Virus record (IMG/VR): IMGVR_UViG_3300036861_000464
Span: 1 to 45,950 of that record
Length of the DNA stretch: 45,950 bases
Direction: 5' to 3' (one strand)
Source of the DNA: a virus
Numbering within the stretch: position 1 is the stretch's first letter; every line of letters begins with the position of its first letter. Under the pieces are notes generated by a model that was given only the letters and a program-made list of their open reading frames with translations, made no database searches and was not told the DNA's origin. A program made the translations under genes and the position numbers. Shown piece by piece: positions 2,092-45,950 of the stretch.

Positions 2092-2369
2092 ACGGCGTGC
2101 TGTGGAATCCGCCTGGAACGGGTCCTACGCTTCAAGAGAGACTTGAAGTGTGGATCGCTGCTTATGGGAACATCGCGCCAGGCGGCCCCGTAGCGCACGA
2201 TGACATCGCGCGGCTGATGCGTGACGCCCTCGGCACTCTCCGAGCAAGGGACGAGCAGATCGCTTGGTACGAAACCGTCAGGAGAACCCTAGCGGCGAAG
2301 CTAGAAGACGCGCACCGCGAGATCGGAGAACTCCGCGCCGAACTCGTAATGAAAACGAGGCTCAAATGA
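2088..2369 (+). CDS. Small protein with C-terminal coiled coil
   Basis: 93 codons, starting at an ATG overlapping the previous stop. The C-terminal half (about residues 48-90) is a heptad-like charged helix ending EDAHREIGELRAELVMK, likely a coiled coil that makes the protein oligomeric. The N-terminal half has no recognised motif. Its TGA overlaps the exonuclease start at 2366, so the two are translationally coupled. Confidence 0.66.
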   Translation: MNGVLWNPPGTGPTLQERLEVWIAAYGNIAPGGPVAHDDIARLMRDALGTLRARDEQIAWYETVRRTLAAKLEDAHREIGELRAELVMKTRLK

Positions 2370-3001
2370 CTCGCCTTCTCGTCGATGGCACCGGGGTCGC
2401 GCACCGTTGCTGGTGGGCATCTACAAGCAACGTGGTGAGTCGCTTCCGGGCAGCGATCGAGCGCGCGAAGCCGAGCTCTGGCGCCGATGTCATCGTGTGC
2501 TGGGACGGGCCCGGATCGTGGCGCCGAGACATTTTCCCAGCCTACAAGGCAAACCGTGGCCAGAAGCCGGAGGCGCTCGTGAGGGCGCTAGAGGAGTGCC
2601 GCAGCGTCTTTCCTGGGTACGTTGCACCAGGCTTCGAGGCCGATGATCTGATCGCGACGTTCGCGCGGCAGGCCCCGCACGCGCATCCAGTCGTAATCCT
2701 GAGCGAGGATAAGGACATAATGCAGCTCGTGGGGATGCACTGCTTCCTAGTGACGAGCAGGGGCGAGGTCTACGATGTCGCGCGAGTTGAGGCGAAGTTC
2801 GGAGTGCCCCCGAACCGATTGCGCCACCTGCTCTCGTGGACCGGCGACAAAGTGGACGCCCTGGATGGGATCGTCGGGTTCGGCCCTAAGCGAGCAATTG
2901 CGAAGGCGCTCGCCGGCGAGATCGGGAATCGACTGACCTACGACCTGACGGAACTTGCAAATGTGCCGCGCGAACTGATGATAAGGAGGGAAAGGTGGTG
3001 A
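2366..3001 (+). CDS. 5'-3' exonuclease, PolA N-domain / FEN type
   Basis: 211 residues, the size of stand-alone phage flap/5'-3' exonucleases. Metal-site motifs are all present in order: LLVDGTG (Asp7), CWDGPGSWRR with Asp47 followed by PAYKANR, FEADD (Glu91, Asp93, Asp94), SEDKD (Asp115, Asp117), and a helix-hairpin-helix-like GDKVDALDGIVGFGPKRA with Asp161 and Asp164. The expected activity is removal of 5' flaps or RNA primers, or recombination processing. ATG 2366 overlaps the upstream stop. No polymerase domain follows and none is found elsewhere in the window, so it presumably works with host polymerases. Confidence 0.93.
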   Translation: MTRLLVDGTGVAHRCWWASTSNVVSRFRAAIERAKPSSGADVIVCWDGPGSWRRDIFPAYKANRGQKPEALVRALEECRSVFPGYVAPGFEADDLIATFARQAPHAHPVVILSEDKDIMQLVGMHCFLVTSRGEVYDVARVEAKFGVPPNRLRHLLSWTGDKVDALDGIVGFGPKRAIAKALAGEIGNRLTYDLTELANVPRELMIRRERW

Positions 3002-3665: not shown

Positions 3666-3908
3666 GTGATATGGAACATGTGGGAGCACCAAGGCTGGGG
3701 CGACTCGGTGCACTTCTTGAATTGGAACAAGCGCCAAATTGCTGGCCGCCTTACACCTCTGCCACGAGCGGGAGACGAAGTGCGGGTAAAAATGGAGAGC
3801 GGCCGCGTGGCTCGATTCGAGATCGTTGATGTTGATTACATGATGGGATCCCACGGACATGTTCTTCGCCACGGTCAACGACCTAGGGTGGAGGAGACCG
3901 AGAAGTGA
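3666..3908 (+). CDS. Small hypothetical protein, beta-barrel-like
   Basis: 80 codons from GTG 3666; ATG 3678 is an alternative. The sequence contains RAGDEVRVKMESGRVARFEI, a pattern typical of small beta-barrels. No recognised family. Its TGA overlaps the GTG start of the RusA-like gene (GTGA at 3905). Confidence 0.6.
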   Translation: MIWNMWEHQGWGDSVHFLNWNKRQIAGRLTPLPRAGDEVRVKMESGRVARFEIVDVDYMMGSHGHVLRHGQRPRVEETEK

Positions 3909-4303
3909 GGGCCGCAACGCTGCTTGAAGTCTTTGTGCCGGGCAAGCCGATCGCGCGGCCAAGCGCGCGAATGTGGAAGCGCCGAAAGGATCTCTACGAA
4001 TGGTCGCGCACCGTGGCCTGGACCGTGAGAGCGTGCATGGTCGGGAAGCCGCTGGTCGATGAGCCGGTCGCGCTGTGGCTCACGTTCTACACTCAACACG
4101 CGGCCGACCTTTCAAACCTCGTGAAAACGGTGGAGGACGCGATGACGAAGGTCTTCTACACCGACGATCGCCACGTGAAAGAAATTCACGCTTGGATCGA
4201 GAACGGCGCGCGCGAAGGCGTGGCGATCGTCGCGTGCCGTAGGGAGGAGGAAAGACGGCCCGGATCGTTGATGGCAGGCGAACGGCTTGGGAAACTTCGA
4301 TGA
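3905..4303 (+). CDS. rusA: RusA-family Holliday junction resolvase
   Basis: 132 residues, the normal RusA length. The family signatures are VPGKPIARPSAR at the N-terminus and the catalytic block ADLSNLVKTVEDAM...YTDDRHVKEIHAWIE. The expected function is cutting four-way junctions formed during phage recombination and replication before packaging, which fits the RecT-like and exonuclease genes in the same operon. Visible acidic residues are Asp68, Asp78, Asp87 and Asp88. The position that is a second catalytic Asp in E. coli RusA (DLDN) is Ser70 here (DLSN), which may alter activity. The GTG start overlaps the preceding stop. Confidence 0.88.
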   Translation: MRAATLLEVFVPGKPIARPSARMWKRRKDLYEWSRTVAWTVRACMVGKPLVDEPVALWLTFYTQHAADLSNLVKTVEDAMTKVFYTDDRHVKEIHAWIENGAREGVAIVACRREEERRPGSLMAGERLGKLR

Positions 4304-4753: not shown

Positions 4754-4927
4754 TCAGATGCGCCCGGAATCGGTGACGCCGATACCGTGGTCGAGCCTGG
4801 CAACTAGAGCGATGAGAGCGAGCGCGATTGCCCTCCGGTAATCGTCTGCGATCGCGGCCTGATACGCCTGGCGAATGAGTGTGTCGATTACAGGATATTC
4901 GGCTCCACGGTTCTCTTGAGTGCTCAT
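4754..4927 (-). CDS. Small helical protein, last gene of leftward operon
   Basis: 57 codons from the ATG at 4927, after a GGGGGAC ribosome-site-like stretch. The product is mostly helical and alanine-rich (IRQAYQAAIADDYRRAIALALIALVARL). Its start overlaps the stop of the preceding gene (ATGA), which decides the start over longer upstream alternatives in this frame. Function unknown. Confidence 0.6.
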   Translation of the reverse strand: MSTQENRGAEYPVIDTLIRQAYQAAIADDYRRAIALALIALVARLDHGIGVTDSGRI

Positions 4928-5097
4928 TTTGTCCCCCACAGAAGCGCGAGCGCCACCCCAAGCACGAGCAGCGCCCCCGCAATGCATGTCCACAGGCCGA
5001 ACTGCTCCCGCCTCTGCCGTTGCTCCCGCGCCCGGCGCGCGTCGCTCCACCCCTGCGTGTAACGGATCGGGTGGTCGTCCCATCGGCGCGGGGTCAT
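4924..5097 (-). CDS. Small membrane protein
   Basis: 57 codons from the ATG at 5097. A basic N-terminal half (DARRAREQRQRRE) precedes one membrane helix (CIAGALLVLGVALALLWG). Both ends show 4-base stop/start overlaps with the flanking genes, which supports reality despite the small size. The topology is probably N-in. Function unknown. Confidence 0.66.
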   Translation of the reverse strand: MTPRRWDDHPIRYTQGWSDARRAREQRQRREQFGLWTCIAGALLVLGVALALLWGTK

Positions 5098-5309
5098 TCC
5101 TGGTCATACTCGGCCTTGCGGCTCAAGCGCCCCGGGTTGTGGTTCGCGTTCCAAACGCGGCAGGTGTCGCGCGCCTCGTCTTCGGTGCAGTGCCGGGCAA
5201 TCGTCGTTTGTCGTCCCGCATGCGGCTCCAAACCGTTCGGCCATCCTGGATTGTTGCGCCACCAAATTCGCGTGAAAACTCGGTAGGTTACTGCGGTTCG
5301 TGTCTTCAT
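5094..5309 (-). CDS. Hypothetical basic protein
   Basis: 71 codons from the ATG at 5309 with a GGGGGCGAGG ribosome site. The product is compact and basic, with RVFTRIWWRNNPGWPNG near the N-terminus and ARDTCRVWNANHNPG in the centre. It reads like a small nucleic-acid-associated or modification-related protein, but no family is recognised. It is coupled on both sides by 4-base overlaps. Confidence 0.64.
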   Translation of the reverse strand: MKTRTAVTYRVFTRIWWRNNPGWPNGLEPHAGRQTTIARHCTEDEARDTCRVWNANHNPGRLSRKAEYDQE

Positions 5310-5533
5310 CCTCGCCCCCGGATAGTCGCGAGCGGCTCATTCTGGTCCGCGCCGGAGGATCCGCCCGTCTTGCGGATCTCGATCACGTCTTCGCCGGTTG
5401 CACTGTCATGCCAGCACGAAACGCGGACGCCGACATGCCACCCGCGAACGTGCGCCCACATACCGCTCGCCTTGGTTCCCATCCGGGAGGCGGCCCCCCG
5501 GTTCCCCTGAACCTCTGCATAGAACTGCGACAT
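5306..5533 (-). CDS. Conserved phage protein, MSQFY-EVQGNRG family
   Basis: 75 codons. The ATG at 5533 is preferred over 5539 because the AGGGGG ribosome site is well spaced only for the former, and the product then begins MSQFYAEVQGNRGAASRMG. From memory, short proteins with this opening and a following GMWAHVRGWHVGVRV segment are widespread in tailed phages, with no established function. Its stop overlaps the next gene's start. Confidence 0.72.
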   Translation of the reverse strand: MSQFYAEVQGNRGAASRMGTKASGMWAHVRGWHVGVRVSCWHDSATGEDVIEIRKTGGSSGADQNEPLATIRGRG

Positions 5534-5608
5534 CTTCATCCCCCTAGCAGGATGCGAGACGCGCCGCCGCGCGCCCGCCGTGAACGTCCGGCCCGGCGGA
5601 GCCGTGCA

Positions 5609-5893
5609 TCAGAAAGTCCGATCGTCGGCCGACGCTGGCCGTGCGCTGTCGATTGCCACCGTACGCCGCGCAAGGGCATCGGTGGCGACTCGGTAGCCGT
5701 CTCTGAGCGCGTCGGCGAACTGTCGCTGCGTTACGTCGTGGATCGCTTCCAATGCGCCACCGAGCAACTTGCGGTCGCTGTGGTACGTCGTAACGTGATT
5801 CCGGTCTACTCGAATGCTGATGCGGCGCGTGCCATCTGCCATCAACCGCACGATGGCGCGAAACCCCGCTATCCGTTCGCTTCCCTTTTTCAT
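5609..5893 (-). CDS. Hypothetical protein
   Basis: 94 codons from the ATG at 5893 after GGGGGAG. The product has an N-terminal beta-rich section (IAGFRAIVRLMADGTRRISIRV) and a helical C-terminal section (GALEAIHDVTQRQFADALRDGY). No recognised family. It is separated from the next leftward gene by about 75 bases, one of the longest gaps in this operon, in which no gene is visible. Confidence 0.62.
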   Translation of the reverse strand: MKKGSERIAGFRAIVRLMADGTRRISIRVDRNHVTTYHSDRKLLGGALEAIHDVTQRQFADALRDGYRVATDALARRTVAIDSARPASADDRTF

Positions 5894-5901
5894 GGCTCCC
5901 C

Positions 5902-6225
5902 CTAAAAGAGCGATAAAGGCGGCTTCGGGGCCACATGCGCGGCTACCATGCCGTCCAGGCGTAGTTGCCCTTCGGCCTCGCGCTCGCGCGCCTCAGCGGC
6001 TCGCTTGCGGTCTGCGAGGGTTTGGAGCTTCTCGGCGTGCGCGGCTGGGCGGCAGTCATCGCAGAGCCAAAACCGGCGCCCGTCCGCATCGTCGAACGGC
6101 ATAACGTCGCGCGACCACTGGCAGCCCTGGCAGCGATCCGCCGGTATAGAATGCCGCCATCCGTGGCCGTCATGTTCTTCACGACACTCGCACCGCGTTC
6201 CCGGCTTGATCTGTGGGCTTGTCAT
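5902..6225 (-). CDS. Cys-rich protein with one IKPGT module
   Basis: 107 codons from the ATG at 6225 with the ribosome site AAGGAAGG. After five residues comes IKPGTRCECREE, then CQGCQW and LCDDCRPAAHAEK, followed by a charged helix rich in Arg/Glu. The spaced CxC, CxxC and CxxC groups suggest one or two zinc sites. The same IKPGTRCxC opening and xCxxCAxxAE ending recur three times in the protein encoded just upstream, so these form a module family (see findings). The role is unknown; nucleic-acid or protein binding is likely. Confidence 0.7.
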   Translation of the reverse strand: MTSPQIKPGTRCECREEHDGHGWRHSIPADRCQGCQWSRDVMPFDDADGRRFWLCDDCRPAAHAEKLQTLADRKRAAEAREREAEGQLRLDGMVAAHVAPKPPLSLF

Positions 6226-6338
6226 CGCGCACCTTCCTTCTCCGCGTGGGAATATTGGGGCGGTGCGGTTCGATTGGTCGGCATGCCGTTCGGGCCATCG
6301 GCGCAGCATTTATCGCATGCGTAGCAGCGTCGTCTCAT
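6222..6338 (-). CDS. Very small Cys-rich protein
   Basis: 38 codons from the ATG at 6338. The product begins MRRRCYACDKCCADG and ends in a polar tail. Both its start and stop overlap neighbouring genes by 4 bases (ATGA), which is the main support. It could be an independent peptide or a fragment left by rearrangement of the IKPGT-module gene, because the same frame just upstream reads a module-like ending out of frame with the neighbour. Confidence 0.5.
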   Translation of the reverse strand: MRRRCYACDKCCADGPNGMPTNRTAPPQYSHAEKEGAR

Positions 6339-6946
6339 GGCCTTGCCCTCTTGCTCGGCGCATGGGGCGCACATAGGAATTTGCTTGGGATGGCGTGGCG
6401 CTCCGCCCAATCGGCACACGGGTCGCACATGGCGATGCCCATGAAGGAGCGCAGCCCACGGCCGTCGTGCATGTCGGCGCAGTAGGCTTGCTTCGGGTTC
6501 ATGCCGTCGCACGGCACCGTCACCATGCGAACGGCATCGCGCCGGCATTCCACGCGACTCGGCCCGCGCTCACATGAGCCGCAATCGGTGTGGACTTTTC
6601 CAAGCATCCTGCCCTGACACCCGCATCGCGTTCCCGGTTTGATTGTGTTCTTCTCCGCGTGGGCGGCGCAGGTGGTGCACATTGGAATATCTTTTGGGTG
6701 TGTTGGTGCGAGTCCGTAGTACTGTTCTTGTGGCCAGTAGGTAAGCACCGTCACCATGCGGACGGCCTCGCGGGTACACGGCCTGTGTGTATCTTCTCGG
6801 TTGTGGCTGTCTCCGCAGTTCCGGCACTCACAACGTGTTCCAGGCTTGATCGTGCAGCACAACGCACGATGTTCCCTTGATGAGTGGAGCCCACAAATTG
6901 GACACGGTCCCCATTCGGTCCCCGGCTTGATCGTGGGCTCAGACAT
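6335..6946 (-). CDS. Three-copy IKPGT zinc-module protein
   Basis: 203 codons from the ATG at 6946, chosen over 6976 because it overlaps the upstream stop and follows a G-rich site. The product contains three IKPGT starts: IKPGTEWGPCPICG near residue 6, IKPGTRCECRNCG near 32 and IKPGTRCGCQG near 100. The second and third are followed by an REAVRMVTV or RDAVRMVTV strand and an IPMCTTCAAHAEK or IAMCDPCADWAER ending. At least 14 cysteines are paired in CxC/CxxC spacing, so several zinc ions are likely. The family is unrecognised and the function unknown. Confidence 0.72.
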   Translation of the reverse strand: MSEPTIKPGTEWGPCPICGLHSSREHRALCCTIKPGTRCECRNCGDSHNREDTHRPCTREAVRMVTVLTYWPQEQYYGLAPTHPKDIPMCTTCAAHAEKNTIKPGTRCGCQGRMLGKVHTDCGSCERGPSRVECRRDAVRMVTVPCDGMNPKQAYCADMHDGRGLRSFMGIAMCDPCADWAERHAIPSKFLCAPHAPSKRARP

Positions 6947-7190
6947 GGGGCACCTCGAACACCTCGTATCGCGCATGCCGCGTCTCGCGGATCAAGACGT
7001 GCGTCCCAGCCGGCCAGGCGCCTACTCTGAGGGCCAGCGCGAAGACGGGCCATTCCGCAGAATATGACCACGGTGAAGGAATGTCCGCGCGCGCCGGAAT
7101 CTCGCCGACCGGACCGCGCAGCAAAGCGTTGAAGCGCGCGTGCTCGGTATGGCCCCTAAGCACGCGGATACGACGAAGGCTCGTTCTCAT
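6939..7190 (-). CDS. First gene of distal leftward operon, hypothetical
   Basis: 83 codons from the ATG at 7190 with AGGGGG upstream. The product starts with basic residues (RTSLRRIRVLRGHTEHARF) and continues as a beta-rich domain (PAGTHVLIRETRHARYEVFEV). It lies about 45 bases after the predicted start of the leftward promoter at 7242-7270, and a degenerate operator overlaps its ribosome site. It overlaps the next gene by 8 bases. Function unknown. Confidence 0.66.
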   Translation of the reverse strand: MRTSLRRIRVLRGHTEHARFNALLRGPVGEIPARADIPSPWSYSAEWPVFALALRVGAWPAGTHVLIRETRHARYEVFEVPHV

Positions 7191-7198
7191 CGTGAACC

Positions 7199-7214
7199 CC
7201 CTAGCGGTCAAGGG
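7199..7214. promoter_or_regulatory. Degenerate operator copy in leader of leftward operon
   Basis: CCCTAG-CGGT-CAAGGG is a near-symmetric 16-mer resembling the consensus CGCTTG-N4-CAAGCG. On the minus strand it reads CCCTTGACCGCTAGGG and covers the ribosome site of the gene starting at 7190. It could be a third, weaker operator. Confidence 0.4.
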
Positions 7215-7241: not shown

Positions 7242-7273
7242 AGACTAGCAGACGTTCCCCTTGCTGTCAAGCG
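7242..7273 (-). promoter_or_regulatory. Leftward promoter with overlapping operator
   Basis: On the minus strand TTGACA (7270-7265) is followed by a 17-base spacer and TAGTCT (7247-7242), a sigma70-like promoter that would start near 7235 and drive the genes from 7190 to 4754. The -35 lies inside the inverted repeat CGCTTG-ACAG-CAAGGG (7273-7258), one mismatch from the perfect operator. Binding there would block RNA polymerase. Confidence 0.68.
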
Positions 7274-7293: not shown

Positions 7294-7309
7294 CGCTTGA
7301 TCGCAAGCG
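7294..7309. promoter_or_regulatory. Perfect operator copy
   Basis: CGCTTG-ATCG-CAAGCG is a perfect inverted repeat centred 36 bp upstream of the operator that overlaps the leftward promoter. Two sites separated by a near-integral number of helical turns would allow cooperative repressor binding. Confidence 0.65.
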
Positions 7310-9506: not shown

Positions 9507-9875
9507 TCACACCTCCGGTGGCGGTGGCAGATCCTCCGCCGGTTCGAGTTCGTTGCCCTCCCAGGCGTCCCCGCGCGGCAGCACCGGATCCGGCCTCGCC
9601 CAGCCCGTGGGCGCGGGCCTCGTCTCGGGGATTGGAGCCAGCTCAATTGGCGGCATGGTCCACTGCGGATCATGGCGCATCTGGAACGCCGACCGGCAGG
9701 TCTCGGGTCCGTGGTTTCCACACAACGCTCCGTTTTTCTTGATCCACGCCACGTACGCCCTGCACTCGATCGAGGAGCGGATCTGTGCGTTCGTGTCCCC
9801 GATGGGCTTGAAATCCTCGTCGATAAGACCCTCGAGCCGGTAGGTCTCCAGTAGCGTTGCGTTCTCGGGCGTCAT
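9507..9875 (-). CDS. Hypothetical protein, Cys-containing
   Basis: 122 codons; the ATG at 9875 overlaps the initiator's stop and follows AAAAGGAGC. The N-terminal 75 residues form a compact domain (ATLLETYRLEGLIDEDFKPIG, ECRAYVAWIKKNGALCGNHG) with three to four cysteines. The C-terminal 45 residues are proline-rich and disordered (IPETRPAPTGWARPDPVLP). Immediate coupling to the initiator suggests a replication partner, such as a helicase loader, but no ATPase motif is present, so this is only a guess. Confidence 0.66.
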   Translation of the reverse strand: MTPENATLLETYRLEGLIDEDFKPIGDTNAQIRSSIECRAYVAWIKKNGALCGNHGPETCRSAFQMRHDPQWTMPPIELAPIPETRPAPTGWARPDPVLPRGDAWEGNELEPAEDLPPPPEV

Positions 9876-10717
9876 TTCGCGTGCTCCTTTTCCCACTCGA
9901 GCCGGTCCCTCTGTGCCTTCTCCAGGGCCGAGTAGTCCCCCCCTCCACGTGGTGGCTCCGGACGTCCGGGTGGGGCGCCGTTCCCGACCGTCGAGCGTTC
10001 CCACGTCCGAACCGCGGCCTTCCAGGACTTCATCGGGTTCCGTCCCACGCGCCAGCCGTTTGACTCGTAGTGGTCCATCCAGCTCTGCGGGTCGACGCTG
10101 TTTCTCCTTTCAAGGCAGTAGTCTGCGACCTCTTTGAGACTTGGTCTCAGAAATGGTGCGCGTGAAGCGACAGTACGTTCGCTATTCACAGACGATCGAA
10201 GACCCAAAGACGCTTGCATACCGCCTACGTTCCTTTCTGCCTCTTCTTCTGCTTCTTGCTTACTGCTTACTGCTTGTGGTAACTGAGCGTTACCGTGCGT
10301 AACAGTGACGTTACGTAACGTTACATCACGTGACGTGCGTGACGATTCTCGGAGCTTTTGTCGGTACTTCCGGACGCGGAGCTTGGCCTGTTCTCTCATC
10401 TTTTCTATGTCGTTCATGTTTCGATACTTGTCGTAGTTGATGATGAGCCATCCCCAGTCCCGGTGCTCGTCCAGGCGCACGATCCTAGCCCCTCGCGCTT
10501 CGGGCGAGCGGCTGGACGGGTCCTCGGACTCAAGCCGCAGGATCACGGCACGAACTTCGTGAGTGGGGAGGCCGGTGGCGTCGGAGATGGTCTGGTGGGT
10601 GAAATCCGCGACGCCATTCGCGTCGGAGTTGGAGCACATAAAGACGAAGACGAGCTGGTCGTTCGGTTGCCCCCGCATCGAGCCTTCCCAGAGCGAGCGG
10701 TAGATTTTCGCGTACAC
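9872..10717 (-). CDS. Replication initiator / replisome organiser, O-like
   Basis: 281 codons from the GTG at 10717 with a strong AGGGGGTG site. The N-terminal domain (residues 1-100) is a winged-helix of the phage replication type: MYAKIYRSLWEGSMRG, SDATGLPTHEVRAVILRLE, GWLIINYDKYRNMN. The middle is a low-complexity linker. The C-terminal segment SLKEVADYCLERRN...DHYESNGWRVGRNPMKSWKAAVRTWER matches the DnaD/O-like C-terminal pattern. The expected role is binding the phage origin and recruiting host helicase. Iteron-like repeats lie within the linker-coding part, as in lambda O. This is family-level recognition by eye. Confidence 0.78.
   Translation of the reverse strand: MYAKIYRSLWEGSMRGQPNDQLVFVFMCSNSDANGVADFTHQTISDATGLPTHEVRAVILRLESEDPSSRSPEARGARIVRLDEHRDWGWLIINYDKYRNMNDIEKMREQAKLRVRKYRQKLRESSRTSRDVTLRNVTVTHGNAQLPQAVSSKQEAEEEAERNVGGMQASLGLRSSVNSERTVASRAPFLRPSLKEVADYCLERRNSVDPQSWMDHYESNGWRVGRNPMKSWKAAVRTWERSTVGNGAPPGRPEPPRGGGDYSALEKAQRDRLEWEKEHAK
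10279..10343. repeat. Iteron-like cluster, candidate replication origin
   Basis: Six copies of GTTAC or its complement GTAAC start at 10279, 10289, 10299, 10310, 10315 and 10320, mostly at 10-11 bp spacing, with GTGAC copies at 10305, 10330 and 10339. A perfect GGTAAC-N5-GTTACC inverted repeat opens the array. Next to it (10230-10277) is a pyrimidine-rich, relatively AT-rich strand with TGCTTAC repeats. The array lies inside the initiator gene, as the lambda origin lies inside O. Confidence 0.58.
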
Positions 10718-10866
10718 GGTTCACCCCCTGGTGAGATTTCCCCCGCCCCGTGGTACGCGAATCGCGTCACGCTGTGGGCGTAACTGCACACTGCCCTAGG
10801 CGCTATTTAGCGTCAAGGGAAATCTTCGCTTGACCGCAAGCGCCGCGGTTGGTAGCGTCCGCCATC
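10718..10866. promoter_or_regulatory. Divergent control region with operators
   Basis: This gap separates the leftward initiator gene from the rightward regulator. It holds a perfect operator, CGCTTG-ACCG-CAAGCG (10827-10842). The rightward promoter TTGACC (10830-10835), 17 bases, TAGCGT (10853-10858) would start near 10865, just 2 bases before the ATG at 10867, giving a leaderless message. On the minus strand, TTGACG (10816-10811) inside CCCTTGACGC could serve the initiator operon, with only a weak -10 (CAGTGT). A CGCTA/TAGCG repeat lies at 10801-10812. Confidence 0.62.
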
Positions 10867-11346
10867 ATGGTTGATTCGCGTTTCGAGGGAGATGTCCTGC
10901 CCGACGCCACCTGGGGAATCTGTAAGATCCACGCCCCAATTGATGTGATCCGGCTCGTCGACGAGGAGGGGCGCCCAGCCCCGAACGGGATGTGTCGGAT
11001 GTGCTGGGAGGAGCTGAGAGGCGATGGCTACTTCAGCTGTCCGGTCCACGGAATCCAGCCCAAGGCACCGGGTCGCGACGGGTGCCCTTTCCCAGACTGC
11101 TTGGGAGAGAGTCCTGGACCAACTGAGGCTGAAATTGAAAGGGAGGCCGAGTCGTACAGCCATATTTGGCCGGGCGGGCCTCCGGCACGGAAAGATGTAC
11201 TGGATGCGCCGAAACCCAAACCTGCGAGCGGACGTGATCGTGAAGCTCTCGAAGGCGCTCAGAGTGAAGCCCGGGAAGTTCCTGGACCTGATGCACCGGG
11301 AAGCGTCGTGGTCGCCGGATGGAGAGATCCATTTTTGAACCCGTGA
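10867..11346 (+). CDS. Zinc-ribbon N-part of split regulator
   Basis: The frame runs 159 codons from ATG 10867, but only the first 78 codons (to 11100) look coding by third-position GC and content. They contain CKIH, CRMC, CPVH and a C-x4-C pair (CPFPDC), consistent with two zinc sites. After 11100 the GC-rich third position moves to the +1 frame, where an XRE helix-turn-helix begins. No ribosome site precedes the ATG, and the predicted transcript starts 2 bases upstream, so translation is probably leaderless, as for lambda cI from PRM. The real product may be a zinc-ribbon/XRE fusion of about 158 residues, or two overlapping proteins. Confidence 0.58.
   Translation: MVDSRFEGDVLPDATWGICKIHAPIDVIRLVDEEGRPAPNGMCRMCWEELRGDGYFSCPVHGIQPKAPGRDGCPFPDCLGESPGPTEAEIEREAESYSHIWPGGPPARKDVLDAPKPKPASGRDREALEGAQSEAREVPGPDAPGSVVVAGWRDPFLNP
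11024..11338 (+). CDS. XRE/Cro-CI-like helix-turn-helix regulator
   Basis: The 104-codon frame from ATG 11024 has only its last 75 residues looking coding: WERVLDQLRLKLKGR, then AIFGRAGLRHGKMYWMRRNP, NLRADVIVKLSKALRVKPGKFLDLM. This is the XRE pattern (helices 1-5, with the RxNP turn before helix 4). The first 25 residues look like a shadow of the overlapping zinc-ribbon frame, and ATG 11024 is the only start. The site next to operator-bearing promoters makes it the best candidate to bind CGCTTG-N4-CAAGCG. Translation could come by a +1 shift near 11090-11102, by independent initiation, or not at all if the gene is broken. Confidence 0.68.
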   Translation: MATSAVRSTESSPRHRVATGALSQTAWERVLDQLRLKLKGRPSRTAIFGRAGLRHGKMYWMRRNPNLRADVIVKLSKALRVKPGKFLDLMHREASWSPDGEIHF

Positions 11347-42184: not shown

Positions 42185-42699
42185 GGGCTGCTTCGCTGGC
42201 GATCCTCCTGCTGACAGCGATGATCGGGACCGCCGCGGCCGACGAGGTCCTACACTACACGCTGCCTTCGACCTATGCTTTGGCCGTCGACGAGACCACG
42301 CTCGTATGCTCTGGCGGGCTGCCGATGAAGGACCTGGACACGCTTCGGCTCTATGCTTGGCCGGTTGCTGGCGGTGGTGCGAGAGTAATGCGGAGAATCT
42401 ATGTCGGAGGGCGCGAAGGGGAAAGCGACACCTTCATGGTGCCGAACGGCTACGCCTACTGGGCAACGACCACGGCCGCTGGATCGAGCGAATCCTGCGT
42501 CTCTGATATCGTGTACAAAGTGGCTGGGGTTTCGGGAGTGGAGGACCCGACGCCGGGGAGTTCCGTTATCAAGGTCGAGCTGTTCGATGTCCAAGGCCGG
42601 CTCGTCGATGGGGCGCCTAGGGCGTCCGGCGTTTACTACCGCAGAACTACGTACAGCGATGGCAGCGCGAGAAAGAAACTGGTGGTGTTTTTGAAATGA
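42181..42699 (+). CDS. Exported protein with FlgD/T9SS-like C-terminal domain
   Basis: 172 residues, coupled to the preceding gene. The N-terminus has a signal peptide (LAILLLTAMIGTAAA, cleavage before DE). The middle has about 90 residues of beta-rich sequence with three cysteines, then VKVELFDVQGRLVDG-like strands (VIKVELFDVQGRLVDG), SGVYYRR and a final KKLVVFLK. This end resembles FlgD Ig-like or type IX secretion-sorting domains of FCB-group bacteria (ending x-Gly-Val-Tyr-x-x-x...KLVVLK). A host-derived exported moron is the likeliest reading. Confidence 0.66.
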   Translation: MRAASLAILLLTAMIGTAAADEVLHYTLPSTYALAVDETTLVCSGGLPMKDLDTLRLYAWPVAGGGARVMRRIYVGGREGESDTFMVPNGYAYWATTTAAGSSESCVSDIVYKVAGVSGVEDPTPGSSVIKVELFDVQGRLVDGAPRASGVYYRRTTYSDGSARKKLVVFLK

Positions 42700-43811: not shown

Positions 43812-43843
43812 CGCTTGACATCAAGCGCCACTGGGCCGATAGT
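43812..43843 (+). promoter_or_regulatory. Rightward early promoter with overlapping operator
   Basis: A perfect -35 TTGACA (43815-43820), exactly 17 bases, and GATAGT (43838-43843) make a strong sigma70-like promoter with a start near 43850. The -35 is embedded in the perfect inverted repeat CGCTTG-ACAT-CAAGCG (43812-43827). Downstream lie the RecT-like gene and the early operon running through the window ends. Confidence 0.72.
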
Positions 43844-43849
43844 TATGTG

Positions 43850-44350
43850 TGGGCCTAGAGGGCGGCGATCTGAAGCGCGGCGCCGAAGCCGACTCGAGTT
43901 CCTCTAGGCTCCCGGGTTGGTGGAGGTGCCGCGCTCGTTGTTTGTGGGTGGTCCCTGGCCGAGAGAGACATAGAGAGGGGCCGATGCTCCGAGCACTGAT
44001 AATAGGTTCCTCGTCCGATTGGCGCACTGGCGTCCGGGTCCGAGCTGCGGCACACGACCTACGGGAGCCCAGGGTAGGGGCGGGCAGTCCTACTTTTCTA
44101 GGAGACCGCGGCATTGTGGGACCACCCCGATTTGTGGTGCGCGGTGAGCCGCATGGAAGCGGTGAAACCGACTCTAGCTGGTCTACGGGGGCCAAACCGG
44201 ATGGTCGCGATCCTGGCTCATGACACGCGAAAGCCCCGATGCCAGATCCGACTACCCGCGACACTGGTTGGGACTGGTGGCTCGAGACAGGGGCGAGTAG
44301 AAAAGTGAACCGTAGCGCCGCGCACCACGCCGATTGAAAGGGGCCTAGAC
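43850..44350 (+). other. Structured early leader without convincing gene
   Basis: About 500 bp between promoter and first good gene. The predicted RNA begins with a hairpin: GCCTAGAGG (43853-43861) pairs with CCTCTAGGC (43901-43909), enclosing a CGGCG/CGCCG inner stem. A competing GGCTCC/GGAG pairing and an ACCAC/GTGGT hairpin (44121-44138) follow. Weak frames exist (for example ATG 43984 and TTG 44114), but their third-position GC is mixed and their products unremarkable. It could be an attenuator, an antitermination site or a small RNA. Confidence 0.5.
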
Positions 44351-44575
44351 ATGGATCAAGGCAATCTCACAGGTACGATTTCGATGTCGCGCAAGGTCAA
44401 TCTCGGCAACTACGAGTCCGCGGACGCCTTTATGAGCGTCGGCGGGATCACGCACGAGACAACAGAGGCCGACGTGATCGCTTTGCTTGATGGCCCGGTG
44501 AAGGAGACATTCGAGATTCTCAAGGCTCGACTCCGCGCCCAGGTCGCGCGGATGCGGAACGAAGGGGGCCAGTGA
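44351..44575 (+). CDS. Small early protein
   Basis: 74 codons from ATG 44351, 9 bases after AAAGGGG. The product has SMSRKVNLGNYESADAFMSV, then a helical end (VKETFEILKARLRAQVARMR). The first half resembles small phage proteins preceding recombinases, possibly an annealing-protein partner. Its TGA overlaps the RecT-like start. Confidence 0.66.
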   Translation: MDQGNLTGTISMSRKVNLGNYESADAFMSVGGITHETTEADVIALLDGPVKETFEILKARLRAQVARMRNEGGQ

Positions 44576-45894
44576 TGGCGGCAGCGAAGGAAACGAAAGG
44601 TACGGCGCTAGTGGCGACGCCGGACCGGAGCAGGCTCGGGGCGCTGGTTGGAACGATCGAGGAGCGTATTCGCGCGTTTGACCAGATCGCAGCCAACCTC
44701 GCGTCGTTGCAGCTGAACGGGTGGGATACCGTGCAGAGGATCAAGGCGGCATGTTGGCTCTCGGATGGAGCGGGGATGCATCCGGCCACGTTCGTGCAGA
44801 ACCACTACTGCATGACCGTCCAGGAAAAGCTCATCGTAGAACCAAAAATGGAGTTTATCTTGGGAGTGCTCCAGTCGAGGATCCCCGGGTTTCGGTTCGT
44901 GATCGAGGAAGAGGAAGACGACCACGCCAAGGTGTGGATGACGGATGGCAAGTCCGAGGTGCGTAAGAGCTACGATCTCGACGACGCAAGGCGGCTGGGG
45001 CTCTTCTCGCGACGCGGCAATATGCTGACGGGTGGCGCTACCCGCGAATGGTGCCTCAAACAAGCGGTCAAAAAAGCGGGAAGGATGATTGGCGCGGCCG
45101 CGTTAATGGACCTGCCGGTCGGCCTGGACACCTACGAGATCGCGGACGGTGCGGCTCCGGCCCCGACTCCCACCGAGGCTATAGACGCGGCCATCGAGAA
45201 GGCGACCGGCAAGCCGGTGGACGTGGAGTTCGAGGAAGAATCGGCGGGGGACGACACTCCCAGATCCAGCGGCGCACGGTCGGAAGCGCAGTCTCCGGCG
45301 CCGGCAGTCGGTTCCGAGCGCGCTGCGGCCCCCGCCTTCAAGAATCCGCGCATACGTCTAGCAAAATTGATGTTCGAGCGCTTCGGCAATCTCTCTAAAG
45401 CTGAGACTGCGGCCAAGGTGAGCGAGTTATACAACGCGATGATGCAGGTGCGGACTGGTGTGCCGCACGAGGGGACGGCGAAGATCGGCCCTATCGAAGC
45501 CGAACAGCTCATCGCCTATATCGAGGGGCTGGGGGGCAGTAAGACGGCGGACGCCCCGATGGCGACAAGTTCCGCTGGCCCCCAGCCGCCAGAAGCAGAA
45601 GCGCCCGAACCCGAGCGGGAAGCCAATGACAGGACCACGGCTGACGCCTACATCGAGCTGATGGGCACGGTACTGCGCGCTCGGAAGCTCTTCGGCCGGA
45701 AGTTCGTTCAGGAAGCGCCCGAGGGAAGCGGCAAATACTGGTTCGTGGATCTCGCCACATTTTCCCAGGCTGGAGAAGCCGCGTCGGTCAAGCTCCAGGT
45801 CGGACCGGACGTGGTAGCGCCGATCGAGAAGATAGAGCAACTGAACCGGATCTTGGGCGCCGCGTGTGACTTCAAGGAGCGAGGCGGTCGATGA
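44575..45894 (+). CDS. RecT-like ssDNA-annealing protein
   Basis: 439 codons from ATG 44575 (TGATG overlap; AAGGGGG 7 bases upstream). The N-terminal 200 residues show the RecT-family layout: GAGMHPATFVQNHYCMTVQE, KLIVEPKMEFILGVLQSRI, a beta hairpin with FRFVIEEEEDDHAKVWMTDG, SYDLDDARRLGLFS, GGATREWCLKQAVKKAGRMI and LMDLPVGLDTYE. A long acidic/Pro-rich linker and an additional C-terminal domain of about 110 residues (from DRTTADAYIELMG) follow. It likely binds ssDNA and promotes annealing during phage recombination, working with the 5'-3' exonuclease and RusA. The family call is by eye. Confidence 0.68.
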   Translation: MAAAKETKGTALVATPDRSRLGALVGTIEERIRAFDQIAANLASLQLNGWDTVQRIKAACWLSDGAGMHPATFVQNHYCMTVQEKLIVEPKMEFILGVLQSRIPGFRFVIEEEEDDHAKVWMTDGKSEVRKSYDLDDARRLGLFSRRGNMLTGGATREWCLKQAVKKAGRMIGAAALMDLPVGLDTYEIADGAAPAPTPTEAIDAAIEKATGKPVDVEFEEESAGDDTPRSSGARSEAQSPAPAVGSERAAAPAFKNPRIRLAKLMFERFGNLSKAETAAKVSELYNAMMQVRTGVPHEGTAKIGPIEAEQLIAYIEGLGGSKTADAPMATSSAGPQPPEAEAPEPEREANDRTTADAYIELMGTVLRARKLFGRKFVQEAPEGSGKYWFVDLATFSQAGEAASVKLQVGPDVVAPIEKIEQLNRILGAACDFKERGGR

Positions 45895-45950
45895 TCCACA
45901 TTGGATGGCCGCAGGGCATCTATCTCGCGTGGACCGTACTCGGGATCCTC
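45891..45950 (+). CDS. 5' part of small membrane protein split by window ends
   Basis: The ATG at 45891 overlaps the RecT-like stop (ATGA). The 20 codons here read IHIGWPQGIYLAWTVLGIL and run off the window. Overlapping the final GATCCTC with the identical first 7 bases continues the frame at 8 (CAGMQHNQS) to the stop at 113-115, giving 55 residues. See the feature at 2-115. Confidence 0.72.
   Translation, partial: MIHIGWPQGIYLAWTVLGIL

Follow-up and report, generated by a model that had tools for sequence, protein, structure and literature searches.

A putative operator shared by three main promoters of an uncultured tailed phage, and a candidate Cro/CI-fold repressor encoded in a nested gene

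Introduction

In temperate phages, immunity is defined by groups of repressor–operator specificity. The closest described parallel to the locus reported here is Cro of phages PY54 and N15: its operators are 16-bp palindromes that vary between phages only in their peripheral base pairs, the part that sets phage specificity, and the mRNAs lack leaders (PMC4488713). We analysed a virus contig of 45,950 bp (63% GC), referred to below as the window, in which a 16-bp palindrome recurs at three distant promoters. The resemblance to Cro and OR3 of PY54, N15 and phiKO2 lies in the 16-bp palindrome with a shared core and outer letters that differ between phages, a small protein of predicted Cro type and a probably leaderless mRNA. 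Those phages, however, are temperate linear-plasmid prophages (telomere phages) with divergent cI/cro genes and OR/OL sites (PMC4488713), whereas the window phage yielded neither a protelomerase nor a ParA match, and its sites lie at early, leftward and structural promoters.

Other well-described systems share some of these features. As with CI and Cro at OL/OR of phage lambda, a few palindromic operators cover early promoters on both sides, and a Cro/CI-fold protein would control its own synthesis. Lambda has three sites per promoter, whereas the window phage has one to two, perhaps three; moreover, no integrase was found in it, and its candidate repressor lacks a CI-type C-terminal domain and is encoded by a nested gene that heads the structural operon. 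In Cluster A mycobacteriophages (L5, Bxb1), operator letters likewise agree within a phage and differ between related phages, and the Pleft promoter is among the sites (PMC6550527, PMC9283540). Their sites, however, are 13-bp asymmetric operators/stoperators, more than 20 per genome, read by a two-domain monomer in temperate phages (PMC6550527, PMC9283540); the window has 4-5 palindromic sites (4 at up to one mismatch), which do not qualify as stoperators. The restriction-modification controllers C.BclI, C.AhdI and C.Esp1396I are the nearest solved folds of the candidate and are also small self-controlled helix-turn-helix (HTH) proteins, but no restriction-modification genes were recognised in the window, and its sites are at three distant phage promoters. 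A literature search on nested repressor genes and on repressors in lytic phages returned nothing useful.

Results

The genome and its relatives

The two ends of the record (1-7 and 45944-45950) share the 7 bp GATCCTC. Once they are joined with this overlap counted once, an ORF running across the join matches an uninterrupted gene of a related contig, G003, without a single difference over 38 aa. Because 7 bp are common to both ends and a gene is continuous across the join, the record appears to be a complete circular map, even though no end repeat is recorded for it, and the operator counts given below are therefore genome-wide. The window encodes a terminase, which is about 28% identical to its best isolate matches, together with portal, major capsid, internal virion and tail-lysozyme-like proteins, and its early region encodes a 5'-3' exonuclease and a RusA resolvase. 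The source is a tailed phage without a close isolate.

With the terminase, capsid, portal and operon-A gene as queries, we retrieved relatives among viral metagenome contigs (G001 to G008, plus those from which L180 and L189 come). Searches of viral contigs with the HTH protein, using sequence patterns, retrieved no relative. G003 and G007 are probably complete genomes, since their ends are identical over 127 and 123 bp, respectively; G008 is the fourth near-complete genome, beside these two and the window. No relatives of the operon-A proteins were present in the isolate-phage collection, nor was any relative of the operon-A gene found in 84,980 bacterial and archaeal species genomes (one genome per species).

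A palindrome confined to a few non-coding gaps

The first-pass annotation had listed perfect copies of CGCTTG-N4-CAAGCG at 7294, 10827 and 43812, a one-mismatch copy at 7258 and a degenerate one at 7199, with no further full copy in the window. All five are present in the record. The 16-base palindrome occurs exactly three times in perfect form (7294-7309, 10827-10842 and 43812-43827), and a search of the whole record at up to one mismatch adds only the copy at 7258-7273, making four. All four fall in the few non-coding gaps. Two mismatches bring in two further copies (15085 and 29200), both within coding sequence, and at three mismatches there are 39 matches against 35.7 expected by chance. 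As this last count equals chance, the three-mismatch copy at 7199-7214 (CCCTAGCGGTCAAGGG) has no support from the sequence taken by itself; it is supported by G002, in which a like site, CTTGACTGCTAG, lies the same 59 bp downstream of the promoter site. No other palindrome with 6-bp arms (spacers of 0-10) is as common in the window as CGCTTG/4, with its 3 copies. In 200 order-3 Markov sequences it was never present more than once, although 11 of the 200 had some palindrome that reached 3 copies. The putative operators are as follows.

10827-10842, + strand: operator A, CGCTTGACCGCAAGCG, exact; covers the -35 of the structural-operon promoter; same-promoter site in 7 relatives
43812-43827, + strand: operator B, CGCTTGACATCAAGCG, exact; covers the -35 of the rightward early promoter; same-place site in G003, G008 and G007
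7258-7273, - strand: operator C1, CGCTTGACAGCAAGGG, 1 mismatch; covers the -35 of the leftward promoter; same-place site in G002 and G003
7294-7309, - strand: operator C0, CGCTTGCGATCAAGCG, exact; lies 36 bp upstream of C1 and lacks its own promoter
7199-7214, - strand: degenerate site C2, tentative, CCCTTGACCGCTAGGG; just ahead of the first leftward-operon gene

Promoters and transcription units

The copies at 10827, 43812 and 7258 each contain the -35 of a sigma70-like promoter (A, B and C, respectively) with 17-base spacing, just as the annotation had described, and in all three the -10 begins exactly 10 bp past the palindrome. The palindrome centre falls near -30 relative to the expected start. 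The promoters and the units that they would serve are listed here.

10830-10858, + strand: promoter A, TTGACC-17-TAGCGT
43815-43843, + strand: promoter B, TTGACA-17-GATAGT
7242-7270, - strand: promoter C, TTGACA-17-TAGTCT
10867-11346, + strand: first gene of operon A; encodes a Cys-rich, zinc-ribbon-like protein of 159 aa and has the HTH gene nested in it
11024-11338, + strand: candidate repressor, a 104-aa Cro/CI-type HTH protein, nested in the +1 frame of 10867-11346
11354-43798, + strand: structural (late) operon of promoter A; terminase, portal, capsid, internal virion and tail-lysozyme proteins
44351-45894, + strand: first early-operon genes of promoter B; the operon continues across the circle join to 4544 and includes the 5'-3' exonuclease (2264-3001) and RusA (3905-4303)
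4754-7190, - strand: leftward operon of promoter C; small genes, several conserved in G002 and G003

Shared palindromic operators are thus found at both the leftward and the rightward early promoters, as in a lambda-like circuit. Operator A sits between a replication-type gene (9872-10717, - strand) and the Cys-rich/HTH genes (+ strand). Promoter A drives the structural operon and not just an immunity gene. At this promoter the start codon of the first gene lies 8 bases past the -10, and for this reason the operon-A mRNA is probably leaderless; a similarly short gap between -10 and gene is seen in G001, G002, G003, G006, G008 and L189.

The sites in related phages

In G003 the motif takes the form TGCTTG-N4-CAAACA (TGCTTGACAGCAAACA). 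It is present at promoters A (1961), B (32461) and C (42162, with a second C copy at 42198) and nowhere else in that genome at up to 2 mismatches, and the 36-bp spacing of its C copies is exactly that of the window (7258/7294). G007 carries a CTCTTG-N4-CAAGAG version at A and B (8579, CTCTTGAGCGCTAGAG, and 22590, CTCTTGCGCTCAAGAG, respectively), again nowhere else at up to 2 mismatches; its site A is displaced, lying between -35 and -10 and over the -10. The A site was also found in G001, G002, G004, G008 and L189, the C site in G002 and the B site in G008. In the three more distant relatives G005, G006 and L180 the HTH gene is present, but no clear CTTG-N4-CAAG was seen at promoter A. The core that stays constant across relatives is CTTG-N4-CAAG, of which 12 exact occurrences were counted in 257 kb against 3.2 expected; the simulated maximum was 9, and none of 200 simulations reached 12. 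Only one of the 12 lies away from these three promoters (A, B and C).

The letters outside this core change together. Across 17 sites from 8 genomes, we compared the three outer positions of each arm (6 letters) and found 0.73 mismatches of 6 within a genome versus 3.07 of 6 between genomes (permutation p=5e-5, the lowest value that the test can return). Since some sites were first found through the CTTG/CAAG core, arm position 3 is partly preselected in this comparison, and positions 1 and 2 are not. The four spacer letters showed no genome effect (1.33 vs 1.58, p=0.17), nor did grouping the sites by promoter rather than by genome have any effect on the letters. Such joint change of outer letters at three distant promoters is as expected if a single phage-specific DNA-binding protein reads all of them; promoter strength does not explain it.

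A search of all viral contigs for the combined promoter-plus-operator pattern gave 32 matches, about half of them from an AT-rich lineage unrelated to the window phage. In that lineage (about 16 viral contigs, L195-L218, for example L205 and L209), CGCTTGAC-NN-CAAGCG lies over the -35 ahead of one gene, and the promoter is a near-perfect TTGACN-17-TATAAT.

A candidate repressor nested in the Cys-rich gene

The HTH gene lies just downstream of operator A, inside the 159-aa Cys-rich gene, and there is no gap between it and the next gene of the structural operon. The outer gene is conserved in the relatives examined: its frame stays open and ends in a conserved C-terminal tail, WRDPFL. Upstream of the overlap, variation in the outer frame is highest at the third codon position (0.557). 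Within 11102-11330 that same position, which is the second position of the nested frame, is the least variable (0.218), and the third position of the nested frame varies most (0.327). Substitutions follow its codon phase, which shows the nested frame to be truly coding, and both frames are conserved in relatives.

AlphaFold modelled the 104-aa protein as a five-helix fold of the Cro/CI type, with a core pLDDT of about 90. The nearest solved folds in Foldseek were C.BclI, P22 c2, C.AhdI, SinR and 434 Cro, with probabilities of 0.97-1.0 but weak E-values (0.04 at best); for C.BclI, P22 c2 and 434 Cro the probabilities were 0.99-1.0 and the E-values 0.04-0.3. As the Pfam HTH_26 match (15.9 bits) is below the curated cut-off of 22, the Cro/CI assignment rests on the predicted fold. 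A search for HTH_3 elsewhere in the window found none. HTH_3 matches in G007 and G008 were considered as alternative regulators and rejected, as they sit in HNH-endonuclease-like ORFs; these ORFs, with an HTH tail, lie between phage genes (G008, L163:13478-13981; G007, L160:15534-15974, - strand) and were not seen in the window. Over 8 genomes, no significant correlation was seen between how far the operators had diverged and how far the HTH protein, or its recognition helix, had (Mantel r=0.17, p=0.29), and the assignment of the protein therefore draws on position, fold and the lack of alternatives. Given these, the product of 11024-11338 is the most likely binder of the palindrome, as judged from its modelled structure and location.

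Discussion

We consider it likely that a single dimeric repressor, encoded by the phage and of the Cro/CI fold, uses the palindrome as its operator at the three main promoters, with the 11024-11338 protein as the likeliest candidate. What we infer, namely binding by the HTH protein, repression, and roles in timing and exclusion, would run as follows. At entry, all three units would be transcribed by the host sigma70 polymerase. The HTH protein, made from promoter A, would then repress its own synthesis; as a dimer it would sit on the -35 of all three promoters and keep RNA polymerase off, and the second copy upstream of promoter C, C0, might provide tighter or co-operative binding. As the protein accumulates, it could damp all three units and so set their timing and level in the fashion of Cro in lambda; exclusion of closely related phages is a possible additional role. 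The palindrome centre near -30 fits occlusion and not a usual activator. The displaced site A of G007, over the spacer and the -10, likewise fits a blocker rather than an activator or a part of the -35.

How far the parallel with lambda extends is a separate question. The first-pass annotation had proposed that one repressor silences the rightward early and leftward operons and controls its own gene, as CI does at OL/OR. Its one-repressor part is supported by the shared operator over the -35s, the Cro/CI-fold gene downstream of A and the outer letters in relatives, and a mode of action like that of a Cro/CI operator set is well supported. The lambda-like lysogeny part is not supported. Searches of the window, G003, G007 and G008 for tyrosine or serine integrases, ParA-type ATPases and protelomerases (PF00589, PF00239, PF13614, PF16684) found none; no prophage relative turned up among the 84,980 species genomes, one per species; there is no divergent cI/cro pair with OL/OR triplets, only one HTH candidate being present; and promoter A drives the structural operon.

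A full temperate switch, in which a CI-type prophage repressor acts and the phage is kept by unrecognised genes or as an episome, is improbable in our view. In its favour, all main promoters carry the one operator and the gene is probably leaderless and self-controlled, both of which befit an immunity repressor. Against this, beyond the lack of integrase, ParA and protelomerase in the four genomes and of any relative in the 84,980 species genomes, the repressor gene stands at the head of the structural operon and is followed without a gap by the next gene, and the candidate protein has no cleavage or oligomerisation domain. It is also unlikely that the sites are operators for another phage product, such as the Cys-rich 159-aa protein or an unrecognised small early protein. 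The Cys-rich gene is indeed the first of operon A and conserved in relatives, and the Mantel test gives the HTH protein no preference. Yet the Cys-rich protein has no match to a DNA-binding family, its model is of low confidence and shows no clear DNA-binding fold, and a Cro/CI-fold dimer such as PY54 Cro reads just this kind of target, a 16-bp palindrome with its specificity in the outer bases (PMC4488713).

The two remaining explanations dispense with a phage-encoded binder. The phage might be making use of a transcription factor of its host that recognises the palindrome, an idea left some room in that no relative which could point to the host turned up in cellular genomes. However, the operator-plus-minus-10 pattern has 81 matches in 257 Gb of cellular genomes against about 90 expected from a simple calculation, one per record, and no cellular genome carries a set of such sites; moreover, the outer letters agree within each phage and differ between related phages. 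We therefore regard a host factor as highly improbable. Barely plausible, finally, is the notion that the palindrome is a by-product of strong TTGAC -35 promoters and no protein operator at all. TTGAC does lie within most copies, but C0 keeps both the palindrome and the 36-bp spacing without any promoter, site A of G007 is displaced from the -35, and the outer letters, which lie outside the -35, follow the genome. The promoterless C0 and the G007 site led us to reject the operator as a mere part of the -35.

Returning to a phage-encoded Cro/CI-fold repressor as the preferred reading, one that also shuts a structural operon is unusual. The lack of correlation between operator and HTH-protein divergence, the sub-threshold Pfam match, the weak Foldseek E-values and the distant relatives that have the HTH gene but no clear site at A likewise weigh against it. 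The combination of a constant core with jointly changing outer letters is found here in an uncultured phage genus without recognisable lysogeny genes, and the specificity signature extends to the structural promoter too. Were the proposed binding true, these phages would offer a small, testable natural set of repressor–operator pairs and an example of a regulatory protein whose gene is nested within another, and they would let one ask why a repressor that diversifies should be retained by a lytic phage. A broader idea, conceivable though doubtful, is that an apparently non-lysogenic genus keeps its whole genome, structural as well as early operons, under one small self-limiting repressor, its gene hidden in another frame of the Cys-rich gene, and that members have split into operator specificities, that is, immunity-like groups without lysogeny, perhaps to exclude or to tolerate co-infecting relatives.

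Other features near the operators

On the - strand at 10788-10816 there is a candidate divergent promoter, TTGACG-17-CAGTGT, for the replication-type gene at 9872-10717. It falls within a 26-bp imperfect palindrome, CCCTAGGCGCTATTTAGCGTCAAGGG, which is also present in G001.

The transcript from promoter B would begin with a long non-coding leader (43850-44350), which is conserved in G003 and G008; counterparts are at L158:12485-12814, L164:16160-16490 and L161 near 2480-2580. The leader in the window bears an insertion of about 190 nt absent from relatives. It matched no known RNA family in Rfam, and the whole leader folds no better than shuffled sequence (z -1.2). Its first ~85 bases can form an H-type pseudoknot, with the pairing read by eye, and the helices keep pairing despite differing sequences in four phages, G007 included.
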